From Oceanospirillales bacterium (GTDB taxonomy: Bacteria > Pseudomonadota > Gammaproteobacteria > Xanthomonadales > SZUA-38): a stretch of 38,934 bases of DNA. Below are positions 1,330 through 25,958 of this stretch, one piece after another (within the stretch, counting starts at the first letter, position 1; every line of letters starts with the position of its first letter). Location: assembly GCA_003233095.1 (NCBI GenBank), contig QIKT01000197.1:1-38934 (forward strand). The letters run 5' to 3'. The position numbers were made by a program, and so were the translations under genes. A model generated the notes under the pieces. It did no database searches. It had not been told where the DNA came from and saw nothing but the letters and a program-made list of their open reading frames with translations.

Positions 1330-4300
1330 TCAATCCTCGAAACTGTCGCTGAAGATGATCGGTGAGAGGGCACCGCACATGGCGGGTGAACTGGCCTGGG
1401 TCACCTGAACGTCATCGAGGTAAAACCCTTCATCCTGGCTGCCAGGATCAGTCGACATAACCCAGCGTATCTGAACGGTCTGACCGGCAAACGCCGACAG
1501 GTCGGAGCTGAAACTGTTGAAGTCGCCAAGGCTACTGCCATTGAAAGCCCCCTGGGTGGTTACATAGCCGCAGGCATTGATCGGTGGATTGCCAGTCATG
1601 TTGAAGTCACCTGGGTAACCACCAGCTGGCGGAAGGTCGTTCCAGCTGTTGCCGCCATCTGTCGAAATCTCTACAACTACGCCGTCCCAGTCTGGCTCCA
1701 GATCATATCTCGCGGTGTAATCAAGTGATGGCGAGCCTGACTGGAGTTCCAACGGCGGTGTGGTGATTGTGGCACAGGTATTGGGAATGTACTGTGTTGC
1801 AGCATCGGTGGCATTGCGATAACTCAGAACCCCGGTGGCAGCGCGATTGTCAGTGACTGACCAGGGGCCTTGCAGAGTCATCAAGGACAGATTGTCAGCA
1901 CCGTCACTGAAGGTGCCTGCCATGTTGAAATTGCCCACCGGGGTCGCTTTGACGCGTAGATTGCCCGGTGTTTCGGATGCATCGGCAGCGCGAACCACGT
2001 AGTAATAGGTTTGTGAGCTGACACTGGTATCGCTGTAGCTTGTTCCGGCAAATCCGGTTTCAATTCGGTTGGCCATCGACGGGGTGAAGAACGGATCGGT
2101 ATCTCGATAGAGGTTATAGCTGACCGAACCGGCTGGGCAACTGGCGGTCGCTGCTGTCCATGAAACGGTCGTTTCGTAGTCATTACTGCTGGCATCACCG
2201 GCAATCACACTGGTCTGATCGAAATCGGGAGTCAGATTACATGCTGCCGTGGACATGGCCACCGATGCACTGCTACAGGAGGAGGCTTGTCCTTCATTGA
2301 CGTCAGATCTAACGCTACGAATCAGGTAGGAGTAGGTGAAACCCCCAATGACATTGGTATCGGTCAGCGATTCAGTTGTTGTGGTGCCAATCAGGCGAAA
2401 TTCTGTGGCAGACGCCGTGCAGTCGCCGTCTGCCCGGTACACATTGAAGGTACTGATCCCGCCGCGCACAGGAGAGGCAAAAGCAACATCAATTCCAGTG
2501 ATGCCCTGATCTGTTGCCGTCACCGAAGTCGGTGCCGAAATCGTTGCAGGTTCTGCGCTGCCTGTGCTGACCAGCGCATAACCCTGGGAGTCCGAGAAGT
2601 TCTGACCATCTCCGGGAATGGAGCTGCCGTCGACGCTGATCTCATAGGTGCCGGCCAGTGGCGCAGGCAGAATCACCTGTTCGACATTGTTGACCGAGTC
2701 GGCGGTGCCGCCCGTTGACGAAGCGCCTGCTGTGACCACATTGCCCAGCCAAGTCGTATTGGTACCGATATGCCGAACTGTCAGGTCCAGGTTGTTGACC
2801 AGATTGCTCGCAGCCGAAGGGAATGATGGTGGATCGTTCCAGACCAGCGTGACCCGCAGTTCTTCACCGGCGTCGACTGCAGCCTGATAGGTGTCTGACT
2901 CGCCTGTCGCGAGTCCGCCACTGTGAGGCACATCCCAGACGCGTGTATAGCGACTGTCGCCGTCAAAGTAGAGGTTGTTGTCCAGGAATACTCGGCCCCA
3001 GCCGAAGGTCTGACTGGGGACGGCAAAAGACGCGGGAATGGCCGTGCCATTGAGCAGCATCGCTTTCATCAGCGCGCCAGATGGTTGCCGTGTATCGGCT
3101 GGGTTGGCGCTGCCTAGCGGATAGAAACCATCGGTAAAATACTGACGCATCAATGCCGCAGCACCTGCGACTGTTGGTGCTGACATCGACGTGCCACTCT
3201 TGGAACTGGTCTGAGCTGTTTCGACGGTGGCGCTATTGTTGGTATCGCCACGTGCCGAGATGATTGACGAGCCGGGGGCCTGAATATCGGGCTTCAGACG
3301 ACCGTCATCGGTGGGGCCTCTGCTGGAGAATCCGGCAGCAGACAAGCTGTTGCCATGCCCCAACGCACCGACGGTCAGAGCGTTCTTGGCCGTACCTGGA
3401 GCGCCAATGGTATTGCCCCCCGAACCGCTGTTGCCAGCGGAGAACAGCACCAGATGATCTTCGAACTGCCAGGTGAATTGATCAAGCGAAGCCGAGTCGG
3501 CGTTGTAGGCACCGCCTGTTACAGCGCCCCAGCTGTTGGTATGAATGTAGGCACCGCCATTGCGAGCCTGTTCCAGACTCTGGCCCAGATTGGCTATCGA
3601 CAGGCAGCCTGAGGTGTCATTGCCGATATCCTGGAACAGGATCTGGGCATTGGGTGCCATGCCGTCATTATTGTCATAGCCTGGATCGGTCGGTGTAGAC
3701 CGGGTGAGTGTGTCACCGGCAACTGTGCCACTGACGTGTGTACCGTGGAAGCCGTTTGCACTTGTCGTACACACTGCATTGTTGTCGTATGCCGTCGCGC
3801 CTGGTTGAACCCAGTAGGCGACGATCTTTCGATCTGGAAAGGTGGCTGCGATGGATGGTGGCAGTGGCTCCTCGCTGTCGGTCAATTCAACCAGTGGGCC
3901 GCTACCTTGGTCATAGCCCACGAACCAGTCCTCGTTGCGGTCCAGGCCTGAGTCCATCACCGCAACAATCTGGCCGCTACCGATCAGACCCTGATCCCAG
4001 ATGGGCGTATTGGTCGGCGCGCCGGTACTTGCCGCGTTGCGCTGAATGGGCTCGACAGAATCGCTGTTGTTGATGGTTACAGGGATATAGGGCGACAGAA
4101 ATGACACGGCGTTGATGGCAGTGGCCTGCTCGATCAGAGCCGTTGCATTTGTGCGACTGATCCAGAGCTGAATGACGGGTGCATTGGCATAGTTCGAGGC
4201 GTTGATCAGGATGGCCTGAGGCGCTATTTTGCGCAGGGCCAGTGTCAGTGACTGTGTCGTCTCGCCAGGGTAGCCGTTGATTTCGATGCCCAGACCGTTT

Positions 4301-4791
4301 TGTCTGACCTGGTCTTCGCCGGATAGCCGAAATGGCATGACCTGCGCATCCAGATCGAGCAGTGCAGAGGACAGCTTCCACTCCGGTTGAACAGGCCCTG
4401 CAAACCGAATGGCAAGGCTCGAATCGTTGCCAAGAACGGTCAACTGATCCTTGCTGGCTCGTACCAGATAGGCCTGCTTTGGCAGAAAGCCCAGAATCTC
4501 GACGTTCTGATCAATCAACGCCTTGCGATAGTCGGCGGCCAGACCGTCAAACTGAATCACATGGACGTCCGATCCAGTGCTGGATTGGAGCTCGAATTGA
4601 CTGACAGCCAGTCGTTCTTGTGTGGGATCAATGGCTCCGGTACTGAACATCAGCATGGTGGGATCGCTGACCGTTCTGATCGTATCGGGGGTCAACTGTT
4701 GAGCATTGACTGGTTCCAAATTGGCGCTGACAAGTGATGGCATGGCCATCATGCTGATCAGGATGATAGGCAGGCTGGATCTGAAATGCAT
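1330..4791 (-). CDS. Secreted S8 (subtilisin-like) serine protease, multidomain
   Basis: The 1153-aa precursor has a signal peptide ending near PSLVSA. An inhibitor-like prodomain follows at about residues 70-130. The subtilase triad is visible: Asp in VAVMDSGLD (about 278), His in GFHGTHVSGTVAG (about 350) and Ser in SGTSMSAPTVAG (about 534). After the catalytic domain comes a beta-sandwich containing LVNNLDLTVRH, then two fibronectin-III-like repeats (about 750-930). A carbohydrate-binding or MAM-like beta domain ends in FYLDDVQVTQ. The last residues, IIFSDSFED, resemble a conserved short tail seen on many secreted proteins of related gammaproteobacteria. The protein probably degrades extracellular protein. 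It lies 106 bp downstream of the GNAT gene and may have its own promoter. Confidence 0.93.
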   Translation of the reverse strand: MHFRSSLPIILISMMAMPSLVSANLEPVNAQQLTPDTIRTVSDPTMLMFSTGAIDPTQERLAVSQFELQSSTGSDVHVIQFDGLAADYRKALIDQNVEILGFLPKQAYLVRASKDQLTVLGNDSSLAIRFAGPVQPEWKLSSALLDLDAQVMPFRLSGEDQVRQNGLGIEINGYPGETTQSLTLALRKIAPQAILINASNYANAPVIQLWISRTNATALIEQATAINAVSFLSPYIPVTINNSDSVEPIQRNAASTGAPTNTPIWDQGLIGSGQIVAVMDSGLDRNEDWFVGYDQGSGPLVELTDSEEPLPPSIAATFPDRKIVAYWVQPGATAYDNNAVCTTSANGFHGTHVSGTVAGDTLTRSTPTDPGYDNNDGMAPNAQILFQDIGNDTSGCLSIANLGQSLEQARNGGAYIHTNSWGAVTGGAYNADSASLDQFTWQFEDHLVLFSAGNSGSGGNTIGAPGTAKNALTVGALGHGNSLSAAGFSSRGPTDDGRLKPDIQAPGSSIISARGDTNNSATVETAQTSSKSGTSMSAPTVAGAAALMRQYFTDGFYPLGSANPADTRQPSGALMKAMLLNGTAIPASFAVPSQTFGWGRVFLDNNLYFDGDSRYTRVWDVPHSGGLATGESDTYQAAVDAGEELRVTLVWNDPPSFPSAASNLVNNLDLTVRHIGTNTTWLGNVVTAGASSTGGTADSVNNVEQVILPAPLAGTYEISVDGSSIPGDGQNFSDSQGYALVSTGSAEPATISAPTSVTATDQGITGIDVAFASPVRGGISTFNVYRADGDCTASATEFRLIGTTTTESLTDTNVIGGFTYSYLIRSVRSDVNEGQASSCSSASVAMSTAACNLTPDFDQTSVIAGDASSNDYETTVSWTAATASCPAGSVSYNLYRDTDPFFTPSMANRIETGFAGTSYSDTSVSSQTYYYVVRAADASETPGNLRVKATPVGNFNMAGTFSDGADNLSLMTLQGPWSVTDNRAATGVLSYRNATDAATQYIPNTCATITTPPLELQSGSPSLDYTARYDLEPDWDGVVVEISTDGGNSWNDLPPAGGYPGDFNMTGNPPINACGYVTTQGAFNGSSLGDFNSFSSDLSAFAGQTVQIRWVMSTDPGSQDEGFYLDDVQVTQASSPAMCGALSPIIFSDSFED

Positions 4792-11710: not shown

Positions 11711-12682
11711 TCAATCCTCGTTGGCGTAGCGCCTCAGATAGATCGCCACACTCAGGAAGACCGCGCCCAGAATCAAGCCATACCACATCCCGGGTTCGGC
11801 GAATTTGTTGATCATGATTGACCAGTCATAAGGAGAGAACAGGGCCTCTCCCTCTTTCATCTGCCCAACAGAGATCCCGTTGATCAGGAATGAGTCATTC
11901 TGAAAGTCGCCTGCAATCGGAATGGTTCCGGACATGAAGCGCTGCCCAATCACAACGGTCAGATTGGGGCCGGTGTTCATCTGCAGCAGATTGCTGATCC
12001 ACAGTTGCAGCAGTGAGACCACGGCGATGGGCAGTGCGAACCAGAGAAATACTTTGCCCTTGGCCCTGGCAGACAACATCATGCAATACGTCCAGAGCGG
12101 AAACAGCCAGAAGGCATTGATGACAAAGGCCACGACATAGCTGAAGAAGTCTCGAATTGGATTGGCCGGATACCAGATGTGAGACCACAGCGACAGACCC
12201 GAGTCAAACAAAAGCACACTGAAGATAACCAGCAAAATCGAGTAGACGACCGTGAAGATGACTGCCCAGATCAACGGGGTCATCAAGCTGCCAGCAACCA
12301 GCTTGGACAGGACTGATTGGGTGTCCGATACTGGCATGGAGCGCCAGAACAGAATGCTGCGGTCCTTGCGATCATCGAGCAGGCTGCCCAGATAGTAAAA
12401 CAGCAACACAAACATCAGGATCATATTCGACAGAGTAGACAGCGCCATGAATCCAATCTGATATCCAATCGATAACTTTTCATGGGACAGTTCGGTCACT
12501 TGCTTGGCGAAATTTTCCAGGATAAAGAAGTCCGGATCAATGCGTCCCTCGGTCACCGAGAGCCAGGTCACGAACAGGATGATTCCGAACAGAAACATGC
12601 CACCCAGGATGAGTGGCAGTCGGCTGAATGCAAATCGGTGTTCCCAATATTCTCGTTTGAGCAATGCGGCAAACGTCTTCAT
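11711..12682 (-). CDS. ABC-2 type transporter permease
   Basis: The 323-aa membrane protein has about six hydrophobic segments. They include LPLILGGMFLFGIILFVTWLS, FMALSTLSNMILMFVLLFYYLGS, VIFTVVYSILLVIFSVLLF, SYVVAFVINAFWLFPLWTY and the C-terminal WYGLILGAVFLSVAIYLRRY. Between the second and third is LDDRKDRSILFWRSMPVSDTQSVLSKL, the coupling segment typical of ABC-2 permeases. It overlaps the ATPase gene by ATGA and is last in the operon. Its substrate is unknown. Related GntR-linked systems respond to envelope stress or peptide antibiotics, but nothing here proves that role. Confidence 0.85.
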   Translation of the reverse strand: MKTFAALLKREYWEHRFAFSRLPLILGGMFLFGIILFVTWLSVTEGRIDPDFFILENFAKQVTELSHEKLSIGYQIGFMALSTLSNMILMFVLLFYYLGSLLDDRKDRSILFWRSMPVSDTQSVLSKLVAGSLMTPLIWAVIFTVVYSILLVIFSVLLFDSGLSLWSHIWYPANPIRDFFSYVVAFVINAFWLFPLWTYCMMLSARAKGKVFLWFALPIAVVSLLQLWISNLLQMNTGPNLTVVIGQRFMSGTIPIAGDFQNDSFLINGISVGQMKEGEALFSPYDWSIMINKFAEPGMWYGLILGAVFLSVAIYLRRYANED

Positions 12683-13536
12683 TCGCCTTCCTCCGTCATT
12701 GTGGCCACGAACAGGTCAGCTACGCTGGGGTGTCGGACCTCACCCAGGGTACTGACTACCGCAGGGTCGGCATTGTCGTACAGACACACCAGCTTTCCGA
12801 AGACATCGCGTTCATGCAGTGGTCCCAATGCTCGAGCCTGTTCAAACTTTTCCGGGGCGACCATGACTTCACAGAAGCGTTGCGCGACATCATCCATCGT
12901 CGCGTCGAGAATGATCTCCCCATCCCGAATGAACATCAAGTCAGTGAGAATATGTTCGATTTCTTCGACCTGGTGGGTGGTGATAATGATGGTTCGCTCT
13001 TCGTCAAAATAGTCATTGAGCAGGTTGGCGTAGAATTTCTTGCGAAACAGAATGTCCAGGCCCAGTGTAGGTTCATCCAGGACCAGCAGTTTGGCGTCGA
13101 TCGCCATGACGATGGCCAGATGCAGTTGCGCGACCATGCCCTTGGAGAGTGTTTTGACCTTGCTGGCGGGTTTGATTTTCGATGAGCTCAGGTAGTAGTC
13201 GAGTTTTTCCCTTGAAAACCTCGGATGAACCGCCTGAACGTATTCGATCACTTCCCGAACTCGTATCCAGCGTGGCAATACAGCCACGTCTGCAATAAAG
13301 CAGACATCCTGCATCAGTTTACCGCGGTCAGCCATGGGATCATTGCCAAGTATCTTCAGGTTACCATCGAAGCGTGTCAGGCCGAGTATGGCTTTCAAAG
13401 CCGTGGTCTTGCCCGCGCCATTGGGACCAATCAGACCGACAATTCTACCGGCTGGAATCTCGAAGCTGACGTCGTTCAACGCGACGTGCTTACCGTATTT
13501 CTTTGACAGATGTTCTGCCTTGACGATCATGGACAT
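12679..13536 (-). CDS. ABC transporter ATP-binding protein
   Basis: The 285-aa ATPase has Walker A GPNGAGKTTALK (about 38), a signature-like LSKGMVAQLHLAIVMAID and Walker B LLVLDEPTLGLD. The H-loop is in ITTHQVEEIEHILTD. The signature LSKGM replaces the usual LSGGQ, as is common in YtrB/BcrA-type exporters. It partners with the downstream permease through an ATGA overlap and lies 30 nt after the GntR regulator. Confidence 0.92.
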   Translation of the reverse strand: MSMIVKAEHLSKKYGKHVALNDVSFEIPAGRIVGLIGPNGAGKTTALKAILGLTRFDGNLKILGNDPMADRGKLMQDVCFIADVAVLPRWIRVREVIEYVQAVHPRFSREKLDYYLSSSKIKPASKVKTLSKGMVAQLHLAIVMAIDAKLLVLDEPTLGLDILFRKKFYANLLNDYFDEERTIIITTHQVEEIEHILTDLMFIRDGEIILDATMDDVAQRFCEVMVAPEKFEQARALGPLHERDVFGKLVCLYDNADPAVVSTLGEVRHPSVADLFVATMTEEGE

Positions 13537-13566
13537 GATGCCCCCCTTGTCTATTGGCCGTGGGTC

Positions 13567-13917
13567 TTACAGGGTGTGTAAAAGGTCGTTTTTGTCGATG
13601 TCGAGACGATGTATCCGTTCGATAATTCTGGGCCATTCTTCGTTCAGAAAGCGATCACGTTCATGACTGAGCAATTTCTGACGGGCTCCTGTGAGTACGA
13701 ACATGCCCAGTCCGCGGCGAGTCTCGACCAGGCTCTGTTCGGCCAGTTCCTGATAGGCCCTGGAGACGGTGATCGGATTGAGCTGGAACTCTGCAGAGAC
13801 TTTCCTGACTGAGGGCAATGGATCGCCCTCGGCCAGAGTACCGTCGAGAATCATGGCGACTGCGTGATCCTTCAACTGCTGATAAATGGGTTGGTTGTTG
13901 TTCCAGTTGGGCTGCAT
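13567..13917 (-). CDS. GntR-family (YtrA subfamily) transcriptional regulator
   Basis: At 116 aa it is the size of the YtrA subfamily: a winged helix-turn-helix with only a short dimerisation tail. Visible motifs are QPIYQQLKDHAVAMILDGTL, then LPSVRKVSAEFQLNPITVSRAYQELAEQSLVETRRGLGMFV, the DNA-binding core. Such regulators sit in and repress the ABC operon they control. It is the second gene of its operon, and a near-perfect palindrome lies upstream of the first gene, a likely operator for this protein. Confidence 0.92.
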   Translation of the reverse strand: MQPNWNNNQPIYQQLKDHAVAMILDGTLAEGDPLPSVRKVSAEFQLNPITVSRAYQELAEQSLVETRRGLGMFVLTGARQKLLSHERDRFLNEEWPRIIERIHRLDIDKNDLLHTL

Positions 13918-16904: not shown

Positions 16905-16934
16905 CGTCTGCGGGTCAGCTCTGACCTGCAGACG
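16905..16934. terminator. Hairpin between the FKBP gene and the lasso operon
   Basis: CGTCTGCGGGTCAG-CT-CTGACCTGCAGACG pairs over 14 bp with one G-U. It overlaps the B1 stop codon and lies 12 bp past the FKBP stop. No T run follows on either strand, so termination activity is uncertain. Confidence 0.5.
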
Positions 16935-17196
16935 TTCGCATCAGCCCGCGTTCGAGTAATGAATCGACCAGCTTGATCAGATCGGTGTGAATGATCTGGG
17001 TCTCGGCTTCAAACTCTTTGCCTATCTGTTTGACGATCTCTGTTTCGGAGTCGCCACTGAGGATCATTTCGAACATTCTGGTGGCCACCACATTGAGTTG
17101 AAAGTACTGGCCGGATTCCGGCTCTACCAGAACCATTTCTTCGCCCACTCGCTCGGCTAGCAACGTCTCGTTGACTTCCAGTTGTTCCACGTTCAA
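16915..17196 (-). CDS. Lasso peptide B1: PqqD-like precursor-recognition protein (RRE)
   Basis: The 93-aa product has the PqqD/RRE pattern: EEMVLVEPESGQYFQLNVVATRMFEMILSG, then a winged-helix part ending in LIKLVDSLLERGLM. In lasso systems split into B1 and B2, this protein binds the leader peptide and delivers it to the peptidase and cyclase. It starts with TTG (17196-17194), which overlaps the B2 stop as TTGA, so translation is coupled to B2. It is the last gene of the operon. The nearest ATG lies 20 codons downstream and would remove part of the conserved fold. Confidence 0.88.
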   Translation of the reverse strand: MNVEQLEVNETLLAERVGEEMVLVEPESGQYFQLNVVATRMFEMILSGDSETEIVKQIGKEFEAETQIIHTDLIKLVDSLLERGLMRTSAGQS

Positions 17197-17618
17197 GGCG
17201 TTTTCTCCGTGCCAGAAGACTGAGTTGGCTTGAGGGTAATCAGTCGCTCCAGCAAGCTCTCGTCCTGATCCAGTCTCAATGAACCGGCTTGCACCCAGGC
17301 ATGCGCCCTGAATGCAGACGCCGTCCCAGTGGTGGCGTGCACTCCGAGTTTGATGCAGGCATCAATTCCGTCAGAACGAAGTCGTCTGCTTAGCCAGATT
17401 GCCCGCGTCAGACACGTTGACCATGGCATCCACGCGGATCCCATGGACTGATGCAGGCGATGCTGACACTGCGCTTCGGTATGGCTTGACAGTGGCTGCG
17501 TTCTGGCATCTTCTGTGCCTAACAAGTGTTGTGCAACTGGTTGAAAACCTTTCAGTTTCAACTGGATTGAAACACGGGATACCCCAACAGTTCCAGTCAT
17601 TCTATCGATCAGTGTCAT
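17193..17618 (-). CDS. Lasso peptide B2: transglutaminase-like leader peptidase
   Basis: The track ORF starts at 17729 inside the kinase gene, but ATG 17618 forms an ATGA overlap with the kinase stop and gives 141 aa, the usual B2 size. The papain/transglutaminase-like core is visible: Cys in WSTCLTRAIWLSRRLRSDGI, the segment KLGVHATTG, and His in FRAHAWVQAG. The catalytic Asp would follow the strand after AHAWV. The family cuts the leader from the core, here predicted after VTM in the precursor. It sits between the kinase and B1 genes, with overlaps on both sides. Confidence 0.9.
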   Translation of the reverse strand: MTLIDRMTGTVGVSRVSIQLKLKGFQPVAQHLLGTEDARTQPLSSHTEAQCQHRLHQSMGSAWMPWSTCLTRAIWLSRRLRSDGIDACIKLGVHATTGTASAFRAHAWVQAGSLRLDQDESLLERLITLKPTQSSGTEKTP

Positions 17619-18556
17619 AGGCTCAGTATAGTGTCTGCAATGGGCTGAACCAAGCGAGAATCCTCGATCGACTGGATCTTCAGGGAGTGGCATTGGCCGG
17701 ACAGGGTGTCTGCCCAGGCAGCGAAGCACGTCAACTGTGTCGCGGTCTGTTTAGGCGCATAGAGCCGAGCGGTGACGGTATGACGGAGCAAGCTCATGAC
17801 GATCTGTGCGCCAGTCAAAGCGGTGGTTTCAATCGGTTTATGAGAGGGGTCAGCAGCACTGATTCGTTCGAGCACAATGAAGCGAGTGATGCTGTTCGGC
17901 TCAGGCTGGAAATCAAGTTTGCCAGACTCAGGCAGTTTCAGTTGCGGATAGTTTTCCGCACGGAATGCATCATCGGCATGTTCCAGCCAGGCGATGTCAT
18001 CGCCCAATCGTCGCCATCCTGGGGATTGCGACAACCGTGCAGACAGGGTTGATTTCCCCGTCCCGCTTTCGCCGCAAATCAGACATAGCCCTTCGGGAGA
18101 TTCGAGCATCGCAGCATGCAACATCGGCTTGCCTGCTGCCGCCATCGCCATGGGTAACAAGGGCCCGAGTATCAGGGTCATCAACTCGGCAGAAGTGATG
18201 GTCCCTTGAGGGTGGATGCGAATAGTCGCCGGCAAATCGGCTGTGGCATATTCCAGTTCACAGTCGGCGAACTGTGGCAGCCGGAGGCTGATACCATTGC
18301 TGTGATGGGCCCAGTGCAGGGCTCTGTCTGCAGACGCAATCCAGAAGCGATCGCACGACTCGATGCTCGTTGACGTGGGATGCTTCCATGATTTCTTGCC
18401 ACTGGCAGGCAGGCCACACAATGGCGAGGGCGCTTGAACTTCGAATGAGTCAAGCGCTTTGCTGAGTCTGGGTGAGGAAACAATCATGGCCCCAAACCGA
18501 TAGTGGATCGGGGTGTCATCGCGGTGAGTCAAATGGAGGATAACTGACAGAGTCAT
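17615..18556 (-). CDS. HPr-kinase-like lasso peptide tailoring kinase (K)
   Basis: The 313-aa protein has an HPr kinase-type core in its second half: a P-loop in CLICGESGTGKSTLSARL (about 170-187) followed by RRLGDDIAWLE. The N-terminal half (HYRFGAMIVSSPRLSK ... LHWAHHSNGISLRLPQFADCELEYA) matches the extended family found in lasso clusters rather than true HprK, and no PTS genes are nearby. Characterised homologues of the paeninodin type phosphorylate the C-terminal Ser of the precursor. The precursor here ends in Pro, so the acceptor is unclear. The gene lies 22 bp after the precursor stop and overlaps B2 by 4 bp. Confidence 0.85.
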   Translation of the reverse strand: MTLSVILHLTHRDDTPIHYRFGAMIVSSPRLSKALDSFEVQAPSPLCGLPASGKKSWKHPTSTSIESCDRFWIASADRALHWAHHSNGISLRLPQFADCELEYATADLPATIRIHPQGTITSAELMTLILGPLLPMAMAAAGKPMLHAAMLESPEGLCLICGESGTGKSTLSARLSQSPGWRRLGDDIAWLEHADDAFRAENYPQLKLPESGKLDFQPEPNSITRFIVLERISAADPSHKPIETTALTGAQIVMSLLRHTVTARLYAPKQTATQLTCFAAWADTLSGQCHSLKIQSIEDSRLVQPIADTILSL

Positions 18557-18578
18557 CGGTCCATGATCCGTGGTGGTG

Positions 18579-18752
18579 TCAGGGCCTCAAGGAACCCGAG
18601 TTACCGCTTTCACCGACGCCTGGTGTTGGCCCCATGGTCACGTCACGAACGTCTCCACAGTCAAGCACAAGCGGAGTCTGATAGGCCTGCCGAGGAGTGT
18701 TCGGCGAGGTTTCGATGCTGGGTGGATGGTTTCCGGCATGTTCTGGGGTCAT
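18579..18752 (-). CDS. Lasso peptide precursor (A), missing from the ORF track
   Basis: The gap between C and K encodes a 57-aa peptide, from ATG 18752 to TGA 18581-18579. AGGTAGAG precedes the start. The 40-residue leader carries YQTPLVLDCGDVRDVTM, matching the lasso leader rule Y..P.L...G.....T, with Thr at position -2. The predicted core is GPTPGVGESGNSGSLRP: Gly1, then Glu8 as ring acceptor, so an 8-residue ring GPTPGVGE and a 9-residue tail. The core lacks aromatic residues, so Leu15/Arg16 are the only bulky plug candidates. Its position among C, K, B2 and B1 makes the call strong. Ring size and cleavage site are predictions. Confidence 0.9.
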   Translation of the reverse strand: MTPEHAGNHPPSIETSPNTPRQAYQTPLVLDCGDVRDVTMGPTPGVGESGNSGSLRP

Positions 18753-18783
18753 GTTGCTCTACCTGAGGGTCGCTTAACTGCCA

Positions 18784-18812
18784 ATATTAGCCGCTAATTC
18801 ACTGATCCACAA
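18784..18812 (-). promoter_or_regulatory. Possible promoter for the lasso precursor
   Basis: TTGTGG (18812-18807) and TAATAT (18789-18784) are separated by exactly 17 bp, about 31 bp upstream of the precursor ATG and inside the 89-bp gap after the C gene. The match to consensus is moderate (3 of 6 and 4 of 6). A separate promoter would allow more precursor than enzyme, but this is inference. Confidence 0.4.
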
Positions 18813-18841
18813 TTCCAGACTGATCATCTGCCATAAAACCA

Positions 18842-20536
18842 TCAGGCCACGGTCCGAGAATGGCTCAACTGGGATTCGATCCAGTCAGCCTCCAGATAGT
18901 CAGGCCAGCAGGCATGGTCGGCATGCAGAATCTGCTCAGCCCGATGGCGATGCTGTTCGATGCCGTGCATAAAGATCGAGGCGAAGCTTGTCTTGCCGAC
19001 TCGCTGGGTGATCTGCTCAGGGAGACGTTGCTGCATGGCTTGTCTCATCAACCATTTACTCTGGCCTGTCACTGGGTCGGTGAGATAGTGGGCCGGCAAG
19101 CTGAGCATGAAGCGTATCAGTGCAGGATCTCGCAGGGGGTAGTGTTGATTGATTCCCCAGTTGGCATGAATCTGCCGGCCAAGCAGGGCTGAGTCGGCGG
19201 CATTGACACTCAGGCAGGCTTCGAAGCGGTCGGGCTCAGCGAGGGCGTTGAGATACTCCCTTTGGCGCGATTCGAACAACAGTCGATTGGCACCTGGTGT
19301 CAGCCAGGCGGTATGCCGCTGCCTGAATCGTCTGGAGCATCCGTTCAGCGGTAACAGTCTGCGAAGCGAATCCTGCCGACGAAATCCTTTCAAACCATGA
19401 GCCTTGATGCGACTGCGAATGACGGAGGCGATTCCCGGCTGTCGCGCGCGCCACGCGTCTCGCAGATGATAGTGTTGTCCCAGATAGAGGTGGTCGCCGA
19501 AGTCGCCGGTCATCAGGGTATCCATACCATCGTCGAGAACACGACATGCCAACTGATGCCTGAGCACGCGGTAAGGGTCGATGAACGGGGCCTGGAGCGG
19601 TGACTTCATGGCCATGAACGCATCACTGAGTGGCTCAGGTTGCCGAATCGTGACGCGTTCAGTCGCGATGCCGAGATGAGCACGGAGTGCGTCGGTGTAG
19701 CGATGCTCATTACCGGCCGGGAAATCTGCAAAATCCCAGCTGTACGCCACCGCCTTGTCGGTCTGTCTGGAGAGGCTGGCTGCGACAGCGGTCGAATCCA
19801 TGCCGCCACTGACGGCCAGACCGATTTGTCCCGAGCTGCTATTCAGCGACATCATGCTGCGCTCTACCGATTCATCCATCAAGCGGATCAGTTGCTGTTC
19901 AGCATCATTCTGGTTCATCGTGCGGGCTTGAGAGTCCACATGGAACCATTGGAAGCGTTTCATGCGGACCTGCATTGGATTCAGTGTCACCGCATACATG
20001 GGCACCGCTTGCCTGATTTCATTGAAGAATGTGCTTCCGGGTTCGGCGTTTTCCAGACCCAGATGACTGGCAATGCGATGTCGGTTGAGCGTATAGCGGC
20101 GATCATTGCAGTTGAGTAAGCACTGTTCGTCAGAGCTGATCAAAGTCTGTCCTCTCAGTTGCTGATAGAACAGGCTATAAAGGCCACACATCGATCGATA
20201 CAGCGTGGCATGCTGGCCCCGGATTTCAAGCATGGCGAAATGATTGTCATCAGGATTGTTCAGACGGCCTTGTGCATCGAGACAGGCGGACTCAGTCATC
20301 AACACTCTCAGGTGATCAGCCTGTTGGTTCAGATGAACAACTCCAGGGTGCTGATCGGCCAAGCTGGCAACAGGCAGTTCGGATGCCGATTCAGTCAGCA
20401 TGGCCAGACTGGCGCAACGAGTGCTGAGAATAATGGGCTGGCGATCGCTGACTCGAGCCAACATGTGCTGTACCTGTCTCTCGCGAGCCTGGACAGGCGC
20501 ATCCGACACGATAGCGGTCAATGCTCGTACTTTCAT
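18842..20536 (-). CDS. Lasso peptide C: asparagine-synthetase-like macrolactam synthetase
   Basis: The 564-aa protein has the two-domain asparagine synthetase B layout. The N-terminal glutaminase-like domain (about 1-200) lacks the catalytic Cys at position 2 (it starts MKVRALTAIVSD). The C-terminal ATP-pyrophosphatase domain has the PP-loop LAVSGGMDSTAVAASLSRQ at about 242 and HYPLRDPALIRFMLSLPAHYL near the end. Loss of the glutaminase Cys is usual for lasso cyclases, which adenylate an Asp or Glu side chain and join it to the new N-terminal amine. It starts 3 bp after the N gene stop, with the precursor 89 bp downstream. Confidence 0.93.
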   Translation of the reverse strand: MKVRALTAIVSDAPVQARERQVQHMLARVSDRQPIILSTRCASLAMLTESASELPVASLADQHPGVVHLNQQADHLRVLMTESACLDAQGRLNNPDDNHFAMLEIRGQHATLYRSMCGLYSLFYQQLRGQTLISSDEQCLLNCNDRRYTLNRHRIASHLGLENAEPGSTFFNEIRQAVPMYAVTLNPMQVRMKRFQWFHVDSQARTMNQNDAEQQLIRLMDESVERSMMSLNSSSGQIGLAVSGGMDSTAVAASLSRQTDKAVAYSWDFADFPAGNEHRYTDALRAHLGIATERVTIRQPEPLSDAFMAMKSPLQAPFIDPYRVLRHQLACRVLDDGMDTLMTGDFGDHLYLGQHYHLRDAWRARQPGIASVIRSRIKAHGLKGFRRQDSLRRLLPLNGCSRRFRQRHTAWLTPGANRLLFESRQREYLNALAEPDRFEACLSVNAADSALLGRQIHANWGINQHYPLRDPALIRFMLSLPAHYLTDPVTGQSKWLMRQAMQQRLPEQITQRVGKTSFASIFMHGIEQHRHRAEQILHADHACWPDYLEADWIESQLSHSRTVA

Positions 20537-20539
20537 GAC

Positions 20540-21688
20540 TCAGTGATTCACGTTTGGCTTGGGGCCTCGAATCAAGTTCCAGAAACCATTGAGCAGACGT
20601 CTCAGATAAAACCAGGGCAGGGTGATTCGATGGCGGATGCGATAGCGTTGGATCATGTAACGAGCCGGTGGCAGCATCAATTCCAATAGAAAGGCCAGCC
20701 GATCTGGCCATGACTGGACGGACAAGTCCTGTTTCAGTGCTTGCCATCCTCCGACCTCAACGGCGATCTGGTCTCCCGCCGCAACGGCCTGCACGAGTTG
20801 CTGGCGTTGATCAGCATCGATCAGCGGATCGAACCAGCACAGCATGGCATCGGCTTCGTGAAGCAGGGCCTCAGCCAGGCCATGCTCTGAAAACAGCTTG
20901 AGACACTGACTCTGCTGGGTACTGTCGAATTGCTGCCAGATCAGCCACAGATCAATCCACCAGATCATTCGGATGTCCTCATGATGATGGCTGACCCTGT
21001 GGATGACCGCATGGATCATGGCCAGTTCTGGAGGCAGGCAATGGGCTGTTTGAGCCGCTGCTGCAGCGTCAAACAGTGTCTGCTCATTGAGACTCGCAGC
21101 GTACACCTTGCGGTTGGAGACTGACCAGTGAAGATCGACGGCAAGATGACAGCTGCTCGAAAGCGTTCGACCATATTGCTGTTCGGAAAAAACCAGGTCA
21201 GCACCGGTAGACAGGGTTCTGAAGTAGCCACAGCGCTCGAGTAAGGCCATGGCCCTGTCTCGATGGTCGCGACGGACCAGCACATCCACGTCGCCTCTCA
21301 TCCGAAGTCGCGATGCCGGGTACAGCCAGCGCCCCAGTGCCTCGCCCTTGAGCAGTATCCAGTCGATCGATGCCTCGTCAAATTGACGACTCAGGTCGAC
21401 AAATGCCTGTTGTTGCATCAACCATTGAGCCGTGTACACACGGGCTGATTCGGCCACCGGTTTTTGCTGCAGTTCCGAGAGCTGAATCAAGCCTTGTAGT
21501 GACCATTCATGAACCATCAGCGTGATACCATGAAGATCCAGAAATTCGAGCAGATTGTCGCGGTCATTAGAGACTTGACTGTCGATGCACGACTGAACGG
21601 CAGAAATCAAGGACTTATCTGCCCAAATTGTTGAATTTTTGGTAAAATTGTCCAAGAGTGCTTTGATTTCAAACCATTCAGACAACAT
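20540..21688 (-). CDS. Lasso cluster nucleotidyltransferase-family protein (N; PF14907-like)
   Basis: The characteristic NTP_transf_5 motif is clear: DWILLKGEALGRWLYPASRLRMRGDVDVLVRRDHRDRAM, with the G-D-x-D metal-binding residues. HLAVDLHWSVSN and a helical C-terminal half with IHAVIHRVSHHHEDIRMIWWIDLW follow. Such proteins accompany kinases in lasso clusters; in pseudomycoidin the homologue is reported to add sugar to a phosphorylated peptide. The start is uncertain. ATG 21688 gives 382 aa. ATG 21751 adds 21 residues but overlaps the ATG of the divergent gene. It is the first gene of the operon. Confidence 0.82.
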   Translation of the reverse strand: MLSEWFEIKALLDNFTKNSTIWADKSLISAVQSCIDSQVSNDRDNLLEFLDLHGITLMVHEWSLQGLIQLSELQQKPVAESARVYTAQWLMQQQAFVDLSRQFDEASIDWILLKGEALGRWLYPASRLRMRGDVDVLVRRDHRDRAMALLERCGYFRTLSTGADLVFSEQQYGRTLSSSCHLAVDLHWSVSNRKVYAASLNEQTLFDAAAAAQTAHCLPPELAMIHAVIHRVSHHHEDIRMIWWIDLWLIWQQFDSTQQSQCLKLFSEHGLAEALLHEADAMLCWFDPLIDADQRQQLVQAVAAGDQIAVEVGGWQALKQDLSVQSWPDRLAFLLELMLPPARYMIQRYRIRHRITLPWFYLRRLLNGFWNLIRGPKPNVNH

Positions 21689-21749
21689 ACTAGCAGTATC
21701 AGTCAGGGAGTCGGCAGAAATGCGCAGTAAACGGCAAGACGGGACGGTC

Positions 21750-23549
21750 ATGATTCTACGTACAATTTTGTTTGCAGCGCTGTTCAGTGCGGCAACCTCG
21801 GGCATGTCGGCAGAAATCAGGGAAGATATCTCTGACGCCAAGCAGGACGATGTGTCGGCTCGCGACATTACACGTCAACTCGTCGACCGCGGCGAACATC
21901 CTGCCAACGTCGCTCAGGCCGTGTCCGAAATCTACGGCAGCTGCGACGACATTGCCAGCAGCGTTTCAGAAGCTGTCGAAGGCCGCCGGGAATATCTTGA
22001 ATCGGTCGTTTCCTCGGTCTCTGCATTGGGTGAATGCGGTTGCAGTGCAGATTCATTATGGTCACGTACCCGACTGGAGTCGCGACTCAGGTTGCCCTCA
22101 ACCAGACTGCTGGTAGAACTTGATCCGAGCATGGCCTGTGCGGCGGTGGCCGCTGAATCGGCCAGTTACCACTTTGCTGAAGATTCCGGCCTGATTCTTG
22201 AGGCGGCCATGCAAGCGCGTCAACCTCAGTCCATTCCCTACGACTCTTTCGGAACCTTGACCAAGGGCAATCAGGCACCAGCACAAGCTTACAAACGCCA
22301 GTCCTTCTATTGCAGTAACGATCGTGATTTGTCGGATGAATTTGAACAGCAGGATCGATGGATGGCATTTTCTCCGGGTTCTCTGCCGCAGGCTGACTGG
22401 ACGCCGGATTGCGATGAGGATGACGAATATGAATCTGAGGATCGCGATGGAACTGATACCCTTCTGATTACCGAAGTGGCTATGCCGGGTAGCGGCGGTT
22501 CCTACGTAGCACTGTATAACGGCACCGATCAGCCTCAGGATCTCAAGCAGTCCGGTATCAGCTTGTCGGTCTTCTTCAATGGCGCGGCCAAGCCTGGATT
22601 GGTGGTTCCTCTGGAGGGTGTGATCCCGTCTCGAGGCCATTTTGTGGTCGGTGGATCACGCTTTGACGAAAATCAGATTGATCAGGTCGAAAGCGGTTTC
22701 AAGCTCTCACCGAACGACAGTGTCGCGATTACGCCTCCGGTGGTCAGCTATAACTGTGACGGCATTCGATCGGTGTTCGGAGGAGCGCTTCGTGGTGCCG
22801 TGCAGATCGACGATGCTGATGAAAACAGCCATCTTGTGATTCATCCGCGCGAATTGGTCAAGAACAAGGTCGCCCGACAGTTTGGTGCTCTGCAGGGCAA
22901 GACGCCAGGCTACGTGGCCGATGCAGTCGGTCAGGTGCCTCTGGATGAGGACGATCTACCGATTGCGCTGCTCGACAACGCGCTGACTCGACAGACCAAT
23001 CAATGTCAGCCAGACAGCAATGAAACCGATACCTTTGCCGGCAGTTCGAACTGGACCAGCACTGCAGGTGCCAGTCTGGGGAAACCTAACAATCAATGCC
23101 GTAGCAACTGGCATGACGGGGTTCTGATTTCGGAGCTGGCCAACGGTGAAGATCAGCAAGATGCCGTCGAAATCTACAACGGTGGTCAAGGGACAATCGA
23201 TCTCGGTGAGGAAGGCTACTTCCTGGAGATTTATCGTGGTGGCAATGAGCAGCCTGATGAAATTGTCACGCTCGAGGGGAAAATCTCACCTGAGCAGATT
23301 TTCCTCATCGCCAATAATGATGTGGATGACAGCATCCAGGATCTTGCCGATCAATTGACTGACGAAATTGTCCTCGATGATGCGACAGCGGTGTTGCTGG
23401 TTCGTCAGCTGACACCCGGTGGTCGCCAGTGTCGCAATTCCATTGCCGGTCTGCTGACGCTCGAGAACGTCCCGAATGTAGTTTATGTGCCGGGGCCTGA
23501 TCGAACACCCGAGCCTCCCAGAGTCGATCCGATCGCCAGCCCGAATTGA
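21750..23549 (+). CDS. Secreted protein with two lamin-tail (LTD-like) domains
   Basis: ATG 21750 opens a signal peptide (ILRTILFAALFSAATSGMSA), so the track start at 21639 is too long. The 599-aa product has a helical N-terminal region with several Cys (YGSCDD, ECGCSAD) and an acidic linker (DCDEDDEYESEDRDG). Two lamin-tail-like beta domains follow: LLITEVAMPGSGGSYVALYNGT (about 236 on) and LISELANGEDQQDAVEIYNGG (about 457 on). LTD domains occur on secreted bacterial nucleases and surface proteins; no nuclease motif is visible here. The Pro-rich tail lacks the IFxDxFE ending of the subtilase. It is divergent from the lasso operon; a functional link is unproven. Confidence 0.78.
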   Translation: MILRTILFAALFSAATSGMSAEIREDISDAKQDDVSARDITRQLVDRGEHPANVAQAVSEIYGSCDDIASSVSEAVEGRREYLESVVSSVSALGECGCSADSLWSRTRLESRLRLPSTRLLVELDPSMACAAVAAESASYHFAEDSGLILEAAMQARQPQSIPYDSFGTLTKGNQAPAQAYKRQSFYCSNDRDLSDEFEQQDRWMAFSPGSLPQADWTPDCDEDDEYESEDRDGTDTLLITEVAMPGSGGSYVALYNGTDQPQDLKQSGISLSVFFNGAAKPGLVVPLEGVIPSRGHFVVGGSRFDENQIDQVESGFKLSPNDSVAITPPVVSYNCDGIRSVFGGALRGAVQIDDADENSHLVIHPRELVKNKVARQFGALQGKTPGYVADAVGQVPLDEDDLPIALLDNALTRQTNQCQPDSNETDTFAGSSNWTSTAGASLGKPNNQCRSNWHDGVLISELANGEDQQDAVEIYNGGQGTIDLGEEGYFLEIYRGGNEQPDEIVTLEGKISPEQIFLIANNDVDDSIQDLADQLTDEIVLDDATAVLLVRQLTPGGRQCRNSIAGLLTLENVPNVVYVPGPDRTPEPPRVDPIASPN

Positions 23550-23619: not shown

Positions 23620-24975
23620 ATGCGAGTGACTATCTTTGGTACCGGCTATGTCGGACTGGTGACTGGTGCCTGCTTGTCCAACATGGGCAATCAGGTGTTG
23701 TGCATGGACCTGGATCAGACCAAAATTGATGGCCTGAAGCAGGGCGTCATTCCGATCTACGAGCCCGGACTGGATGCGATCGTTCAGGAAACCACTCAAT
23801 CTGGCCACCTCAGATTCACCACTGACGCCGAGGAAGCAGTCGCCTTTGGCGAGATTCAGTTGATCGCAGTGGGTACTCCGCCCGATGAAGATGGCAGTGC
23901 CGATCTTCAACATGTGCTGGCGGTGGCAAACACCATTGGCGAATTGATGAGCGACGACAAGATCGTTGTCGACAAGTCGACTGTGCCGGTCGGCACAGCG
24001 GATCGTGTCCAGCAGACCATTCAAGCTCAGTTGGACAAGCGCGCAGTGAGGGCACATGCTGCGGTGGTCTCAAACCCAGAATTTCTCAAGGAAGGCGCTG
24101 CGGTTGACGACTGTATGCGACCAGATCGAATTATTCTGGGCTCTGATGATGAAGACGCTATTGCGGTCATGAAGGCATTGTATGCGCCGTTCAATCGCAA
24201 TCATGACAAGATCATTGTCATGGATGTTCGATCGGCCGAGCTGACCAAATACGCCGCCAATGCGATGCTTGCAACCAAGATCAGCTTCATGAATGACATG
24301 GCCAACCTGGCCGAGCGAGTGGGTGCTGATATCGAACTGGTTCGCCAGGGCATCGGATCAGATCCTCGAATCGGTTTTTCTTTCATCTATCCGGGCTGCG
24401 GCTATGGCGGCTCCTGTTTCCCCAAAGACGTCAAGGCACTGGTGCGCACGGCTGGTCAGCATGATTACAACATGCGAGTGCTGGATGCCGTCGAGGCCGT
24501 CAATCAGGATCAGAAACATCGACTGTTCGAGCGGATCACGGAGTTTTATCGCGGTTTAGAGCTGTCGAGCAAGACCTTCGCTATCTGGGGGTTATCGTTC
24601 AAGCCCAATACCGACGATATGCGAGATGCGACCAGTATCGAGCTGGTTCGAGCACTCTGTGATGCAGGTGCCAGGGTGTGCGTGTTTGACCCGGAGGCCA
24701 TGGACGAAGCCCGGCATGAATTCTCTGATCTTGACTCTGTGATTTACGCCGAATCCGCTCAGGATGCGGTGTCGGGAGCGGATGCTCTTGCGGTGGTTAC
24801 CGAGTGGAAGTCGTTCTGGAGTCCGGACTTCGAGTTACTGGCCAAGACCCTGACTGATCGCGTCATCTTTGACGGTCGCAATATCTACGATCCAGACGTG
24901 GTTGCCGAGGCAGGCATTGCCTATTACGGGATTGGACGCGGGCTGTCTGTCTCGCGTCCAGTGATGTCTAGCTGA
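23620..24975 (+). CDS. ugd: UDP-glucose 6-dehydrogenase
   Basis: The 451-aa enzyme has the NAD-binding [20 protein letters not shown], the loop [11 protein letters not shown], and catalytic Cys in [18 protein letters not shown] (about 260). The C-terminal UDP-binding domain begins [22 protein letters not shown]. It oxidises UDP-glucose to UDP-glucuronate with two NAD+. GGAAA precedes the start. The stop overlaps the uxs start (TGATG), so the two genes form a pathway operon feeding polysaccharide synthesis. Confidence 0.96.
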
Positions 24976-25958
24976 TGCGCTCGACACTTGAACCGCTGCG
25001 TACACTGGTGACCGGCGGCGCCGGCTTCCTGGGCTCATATCTGTGTGATGCGTTGCTCGCCAAGGGTCACGATGTGGTCTGCGTCGACAATCTGTTTACC
25101 GGAAGCAAGCGAAATATTGTTCATTTGCTCAATCATGAGCGATTCGAATTCATCCGTCATGATGTGACCTTTCCGCTCTATCTGGAAGTAGATGAAATTT
25201 ACAATCTGGCCTGCCCAGCGTCGCCCGTCCACTACCAGCACGATCCGGTCCAGACGACCAAGACCAGCGTGCATGGCGCAATCAACCTGCTGGGTCTTGC
25301 CAAGCGCCTGAACGTACCCATCTTTCAGGCGTCCACGTCTGAAGTGTATGGCGATCCGGCGATCCACCCACAGATCGAGTCCTATTGGGGCAACGTCAAC
25401 CCGATCGGCCCTCGATCCTGCTATGACGAGGGCAAGCGCTGCGCTGAGACCTTGTTCTTCGACTATCACCGTCAGCATCAGCTACAGATCAAGGTGGCCA
25501 GAATTTTCAACACCTATGGTCCGCGCATGCATCCCGACGATGGCCGAGTGGTCTCCAACTTCATTGTTCAGGCGCTTCGCGGAATCGATATCACCATCTA
25601 CGGCGATGGCAGCCAGACTCGTTCCTTCTGCTACGTCAGCGACATGATTGCTGCGTTCACAGCACTGATGGCCACTGATGCTAGCGTCACCGGTCCTGTC
25701 AACGTGGGTAACCCGGGAGAGTTCAGCATTCTTCAGCTGGCTGAGCAGGTGATCGAACTGACCGGCTCCTCGTCGAAAATCGTGCACAAGCCCTTGCCAG
25801 TGGATGATCCGGTGCAGCGCCAACCGGATATCAGCCTGGCACAACAAGTTCTGAACTGGCAGCCCGAAGTCCCTCTGAAAGAAGGGCTGATCGAGACGAT
25901 CGCCTATTTCGATTCCTTGTTGTCCGGTTCAGACTCTGTAGAGAACGGCCAGGAATAA
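24975..25958 (+). CDS. uxs: UDP-glucuronate decarboxylase (UDP-xylose synthase)
   Basis: The 327-aa SDR-family protein has the Rossmann motif [15 protein letters not shown] and the UXS-specific [20 protein letters not shown]. The catalytic Ser and Tyr-x-x-x-Lys are in [11 protein letters not shown] and [32 protein letters not shown] is also family-typical. It converts UDP-glucuronate, the Ugd product, to UDP-xylose. No glycosyltransferase is adjacent, so the final polymer is unknown. Its last 55 nt overlap the PDZ-protein gene on the opposite strand. Confidence 0.94.

Follow-up and report, generated by a model that had tools for sequence, protein, structure and literature searches.

The window analysed here, an entire contig of 38,934 nucleotides from a 2.89 Mb genome in 232 contigs, carries six consecutive minus-strand genes (N-C-A-K-B2-B1, positions 16915-21688) that almost certainly constitute a lasso peptide cluster, and whose 17-residue product is predicted, by analogy with a characterised system, to be phosphorylated at ring residue Thr3. 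The producer is an uncultured relative of Lysobacter. Lasso systems with a kinase of this kind are already known, and this operon adds a member. The six genes lie in identical order at one common chromosomal site in all three other genomes of the family that were searched (G001, G002 and G003), an arrangement that is more than chance, and the core peptide is near-frozen there over diverged enzymes, a rare handle on the use of a lasso peptide to its own producer.

A six-gene lasso peptide operon

An earlier note on this DNA had described at this location what looked like a complete lasso cluster, in which two tailoring genes, for a kinase and a nucleotidyltransferase, join B1, B2, C and a precursor. 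All six genes were found there, and family searches, the leader register and conserved synteny support the description. The overlaps of 4 bp that it had given for K/B2 and B2/B1, and the 3-bp gap between N and C, agree with the gene coordinates; C and A are separated by 89 bp, and A and K by 22 bp. In operon order, the features are:

20540..21688, minus strand: N, nucleotidyltransferase-like, first gene of the operon (PF14907, 1.1e-27)
18842..20536, minus strand: C, lasso cyclase, asparagine-synthetase-like (PF00733, 1.2e-30; NF033535, 3.1e-28, below cut-off; SGGMDS ATP loop)
18579..18752, minus strand: A, lasso precursor of 57 aa (NF033521, 16 bits; leader register; position shared with the three family relatives)
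18582..18632, minus strand: predicted core GPTPGVGESGNSGSLRP, numbered from the leader register and aligned with two relatives
17615..18556, minus strand: K, HprK/PEPCK-type P-loop kinase, predicted precursor kinase (PF13671, TIGR04352, motif residues, fold model)
17193..17618, minus strand: B2, leader protease, transglutaminase-like (NF033537, 8.2e-13; PF13471, 4.1e-14)
16915..17196, minus strand: B1, PqqD-like leader-binding protein, TTG start (PF05402, 7.9e-14)

The family assignments of B1, B2 and C, for which the note had proposed an HMM check, hold. In C, which reaches 107.8 bits with PF00733 (cut-off 21), residue 243 marks the ATP loop; matches to the curated lasso cyclase models stay below their cut-offs, and a phmmer search against PDB sequences returned no match at E 0.001. 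B2 scores 48.9 bits with the lasso_biosyn_B2 model NF033537 (cut-off 33), and its residues C69 and H106 are invariant among three aligned homologues. B1 is above the cut-off of the PqqD family, and below those of the lasso-specific PqqD models. For N, the ATG at 21688 is one option for the start, as the frame stays open to an ATG at 21868, within a divergent gene. That gene (21639-23549) encodes a lamin-tail-domain protein, which the three relatives lack at this position.

Scans for promoters (3 hits vs 2.9 in shuffles) and terminators (7 vs 4.7) showed no excess over shuffled sequence, and thus no promoter is claimed. The other PF13471 match in the same genome (C39, a 500-aa frame) was considered as a second lasso locus and set aside, as BLASTP shows no counterpart of the window's six proteins in its vicinity.

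Precursor and predicted core

The leader register of A places Tyr(-17) at Y24, Pro(-14) at P27 and Thr(-2) at T39, with Val replacing Leu at -12. The 17-residue core begins with Gly1 (G41), has Thr3, Glu8 (E48) and Ser9, and ends in Pro. A macrolactam between Gly1 and Glu8, giving an 8-residue ring, is very probable, and the product would be threaded. Taken by itself, A falls narrowly short of a lasso leader call, because its 16 bits with NF033521 lie under the cut-off of 19, perhaps owing to the Val at -12; two of the three other family precursors are below the cut-off too, and the third scores 18.8. The possibility that A is a chance open reading frame was discarded, as it occupies the same place in all three relatives and its last 25 codons differ from theirs by 12-14 synonymous and 3-4 non-synonymous changes.

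The earlier note had also pointed to the central position of the precursor, between cyclase and kinase, as unusual. The position is correct, but the order is normal in this lineage, being that of all three other family genomes, and C-A-K-B2-B1 recurs elsewhere in the order, in other families (L030, L031 and L034).

The kinase

K scores above the cut-off of PF13671 (5.9e-7) and below those of TIGR04352 (1.2e-7) and PF07475 (0.2); it is below the cut-off of every HprK model, and far from any curated kinase model. Its residues H147, G162, G165, G167, K168, S169, D186 and D187 make up the full H-G-G-G-K-S-D-D motif of BsfK, the kinase of the bsf system described below. The best Foldseek matches of a K model (mean pLDDT 58.3) were PEP carboxykinases (E 8.7e-5) and HPr kinases (1.6e-3), and VIA gave Z values of 10.1 against a PEPCK and 7.4 against HprK; the models of K and N, built from three sequences each and with mean pLDDT around 58, support the broad fold only. 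We consider it probable that K phosphorylates the precursor.

In the kinase tree, the K of the window is a long branch apart from its three family relatives and joins L030 with a support of 88/63, whereas in the cyclase tree the four family members form one group (99/97); we take the placement of K as unsure. A further branch of the kinase tree (94/95) has the kinases of the order on one side and four kinases with Ser-ending precursors on the other.

Cores and kinases across the order, class and phylum

A combined leader and core pattern matches 23 of the 398 genomes of the order, among them all four of the window's family. As this wide pattern itself requires S/T-like codons at core positions 3 and 9, its 19 distinct cores are no evidence for those positions. 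For these we relied on precursors found by their leader beside cyclases of the order (the window, L023-L025, L028-L035 and L037, with L028 and L035 chosen by eye via a looser leader pattern), all 13 of which have Ser or Thr at position 3, Asp or Glu at position 8 and Ser at position 9, and none of which ends in Ser. Regarding the remaining cyclase matches, 2 of 19 (L019 and L020) were left out, L036 is a contig end, and no precursor adjoins the cyclase in L026 and L027. A kinase gene accompanies nine of the 13 (the window, L023, L024, L025, L030, L031, L034, L035 and L037); its absence from L029 and L033 says little, since these contigs are under 7.5 kb.

In one family of the order, precursor, K and B2 form a group beside which neither cyclase nor B1 was detected (L068, L070, L072-L077; L026, L027). 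The cyclase of that family lies at a separate place in at least two of the genomes (G010 and G028) and groups with the cyclases of the window's family (98/95).

A match to the lasso B2 model is present in 14 genomes out of 321 for the class and in 45 out of 398 for the phylum. Three precursors in kinase-bearing clusters from this set end in Ser (L145, L146 and L153); in two further clusters outside the order, L096 and L105, the core as read by eye lacks both Ser/Thr3 and a terminal Ser, and in the rest of these kinase-bearing clusters no precursor was recognised. According to reviews, lasso kinases act on a C-terminal Ser, and the bsf study is the only one in which we found a ring residue shown as the target; among open-licence papers, none was found that links ring phosphorylation to lasso clusters of this order. 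In the order-wide set of cores, position 3 always bears a hydroxyl and the last residue is never Ser, which suggests that ring phosphorylation is common in the order and provides ready substrates for testing it.

Predicted site of phosphorylation

The closest known system is the bsf cluster of Bradymonas sediminis FA350 (BsfA, B1, B2, C, D, K and N). Its published description reports that BsfK acts on Ser3 while the leader is still attached to the precursor and accepts Thr3, that BsfB1 speeds up BsfK, that the ring of BsfA is closed at Asp8 and its C-terminus is Asp, and that the S10A and T11A changes leave phosphorylation intact (PMC10368454). According to those authors, earlier lasso phosphates were all on C-terminal Ser, where BsfA is not modifiable (PMC10368454); the same argument extends to A of the window, as its core ends in Pro.

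Compared with the published description of BsfA and BsfK, the window shares the gene set A, B1, B2, C, K and N, the 8-residue ring from Gly1, a hydroxyl at core position 3, the lack of a terminal Ser and the kinase motif residues. The leader registers appear to coincide at Tyr(-17) and Pro(-14). On the other hand, the window has Thr instead of Ile at -2, Val instead of Leu at -12, Thr3 instead of Ser3 and Glu8 instead of Asp8, and it has no adjacent D transporter. Among the traits by which we define the bsf type are a core with Ser or Thr as its third residue and with a residue other than Ser at its end; the window has both, as Thr3 and the C-terminal Pro. Ile or Val at -2, which is a Bradymonadales trait, stands outside that definition.

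Given the action of BsfK on Ser3 or Thr3 in a precursor with no C-terminal Ser to modify, Thr3 is predicted as the target of K; by this analogy it is the best-supported site, and we favour it moderately. Conservation alone does not separate it from Ser9, as these two are the only hydroxyl residues of the core that are invariant across the four family genomes. K might thus target Ser9, just outside the ring, the rest of the pathway being unchanged: among the 13 leader-found cores this position is always Ser and never Thr, while position 3 varies between the two. We judge this unlikely, because the one characterised ring-type kinase, BsfK, picked residue 3 and passed over the hydroxyls at 10 and 11 (PMC10368454), and because Ser9 may serve the fold beside the isopeptide acid. 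Neither residue need be kept for K, since both Ser3 and Ser9 are retained in L032, where a search of 5 kb found no K.

The kinases of paeninodin (padeA-K) and of SyanA/K from Sphingobium yanoikuyae are likewise HPr-kinase-like and act on the precursor, but they need a C-terminal Ser, and their gene order differs from that of the window. Pseudomycoidin (psmA-K-N), from a Firmicute, has both K and N; its phosphate sits on the C-terminal Ser, and PsmN places one or two hexoses on this phosphoserine in vivo, whether it transfers them itself or acts indirectly (PMC9266682, PMC8498205). A pathway of this type, in which K would phosphorylate the C-terminal residue and N add hexoses there, would account for the same pair of K and N, but is very improbable here: phosphorylation of a terminal Ser as in paeninodin is ruled out by the C-terminal Pro, so that the sequence contradicts the terminal-residue reading unless the C-terminal tail is trimmed first. 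Moreover, none of the 13 cores of the order ends in Ser, and the Ser-ending precursors pair with kinases outside the group of the window. The phosphate or hexose adducts that the earlier note had proposed to look for by mass spectrometry are therefore expected on Thr3 of the ring and not at the C-terminus. The calculated [M+H]+ is 1550.756 for the cyclised core, 1630.722 with a single phosphate and 1792.775 with phosphate plus one hexose.

The nucleotidyltransferase and the proposed pathway

The acidic residues of N, in GDVD and DLHW, are invariant among three aligned homologues, and its low-confidence model (mean pLDDT 57.7) matches the pol-beta-type nucleotidyltransferases MenT1 and ANT(2''). 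N is present in all four family genomes, but the majority of the other loci of the order that have a kinase showed no N, which indicates that such clusters can dispense with it. That N acts on the phosphate installed by K is plausible, if a little short of probable, and the group attached would be nucleotidyl- or sugar-derived. The bsf authors assign no function to BsfN, and no product of their cluster was seen in vivo (PMC10368454).

The proposed pathway builds on genes, gene order, catalytic residues, leader register and core read directly from the window; its phosphorylation site and order of steps are modelled on BsfK/BsfB1 and PsmN. B1 would bind the leader through YxxPx[LV] and Thr(-2), and K, aided by B1, would phosphorylate Thr3 on the still-linear precursor. 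B2 would then remove the leader, cutting just past Thr(-2) so that the core starts at Gly1, and C would activate Glu8 and link it to Gly1 around the tail, yielding a lasso of 17 residues, eight of them in the ring. Finally, the phosphate would receive its nucleotidyl- or sugar-derived group from N. As a whole, this scheme of one lasso peptide with a Thr3 phosphate, a Glu8 ring and an addition by N is reasonably likely.

Alternatively, K and N could be inactive or otherwise employed, with a host molecule or the product of N as target, for example, and the mature peptide would be an unmodified lasso. The failure of K to reach the cut-off of any HprK model and the patchy occurrence of N outside the family point in this direction. 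Against it, K retains every residue for nucleotide binding and catalysis, and these are under constraint; dN/dS for K is 0.30 between two relatives (G001 and G003), and its gene lies between A and B2, overlapping the latter by 4 bp. We hold this alternative to be improbable, and the modified lasso peptide described above is the reading that we retain.

Inheritance and conservation of the core

An initial scan of genome contigs with the cyclase found no relative. In the four family genomes, the operon has common neighbours: a convergent FKBP isomerase downstream, followed by a GntR-like regulator, an ABC ATPase and a permease, and Ugd and Uxs upstream. Extra genes for an ATP-sulfurylase/APS kinase and the lamin-tail-domain protein occur at this site in the window only. 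As gene order and neighbours are the same in all four genomes and the cyclases form a supported group, the operon is vertically inherited at one site in the family.

The lasso enzymes of the window share only 27-37% pairwise identity with those of the three relatives, compared to 53-75% for the neighbours FKBP, ABC ATPase, Ugd, Uxs and PurB (Ugd of G003 left out); the ABC permease, at 35-37%, has diverged as much as the lasso enzymes. The core, on the other hand, is identical to that of the window at 13 of 17 positions in G002 and 15 of 17 in G001 and G003. Between G001 and G003, dN/dS is 0.17-0.31 for the five enzymes (for C from the last 1700 bases only, its start being inflated) and 0.012-0.073 for six neighbours, values from a single pair with high dS (up to 1.14) in which the dS of the enzymes exceeds that of some neighbours, so that uneven divergence or recombination is a possible alternative explanation of the gap. 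The last 25 precursor codons of the same pair show eight synonymous differences and no others.

A near-frozen core amid diverged enzymes suggests a conserved role and not an arms race. A broader reading, speculative and on balance doubtful, would be that the lasso peptide is fixed in the lineage and passed on vertically, carries a phosphothreonine, perhaps a phosphosugar, in its ring, and serves some conserved physiological purpose (signal, envelope- or EPS-linked) instead of warfare, while its maturation enzymes drift unusually fast and its site stays beside UDP-sugar genes.

Those genes, for a UDP-glucose dehydrogenase and a UDP-glucuronate decarboxylase-like protein (23620-25958), adjoin the operon in each of the four family genomes, and could supply sugar nucleotides to N or merely be part of a polysaccharide locus. 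Likewise found near the operon in all four, the GntR-like regulator (labelled by sequence reading), ABC ATPase and permease genes (11711-13917, on one strand) are a candidate for export or self-protection. Farther away in the window, a large secreted-looking protein (1330-4791) resembles, by eye, a subtilisin-type protease.
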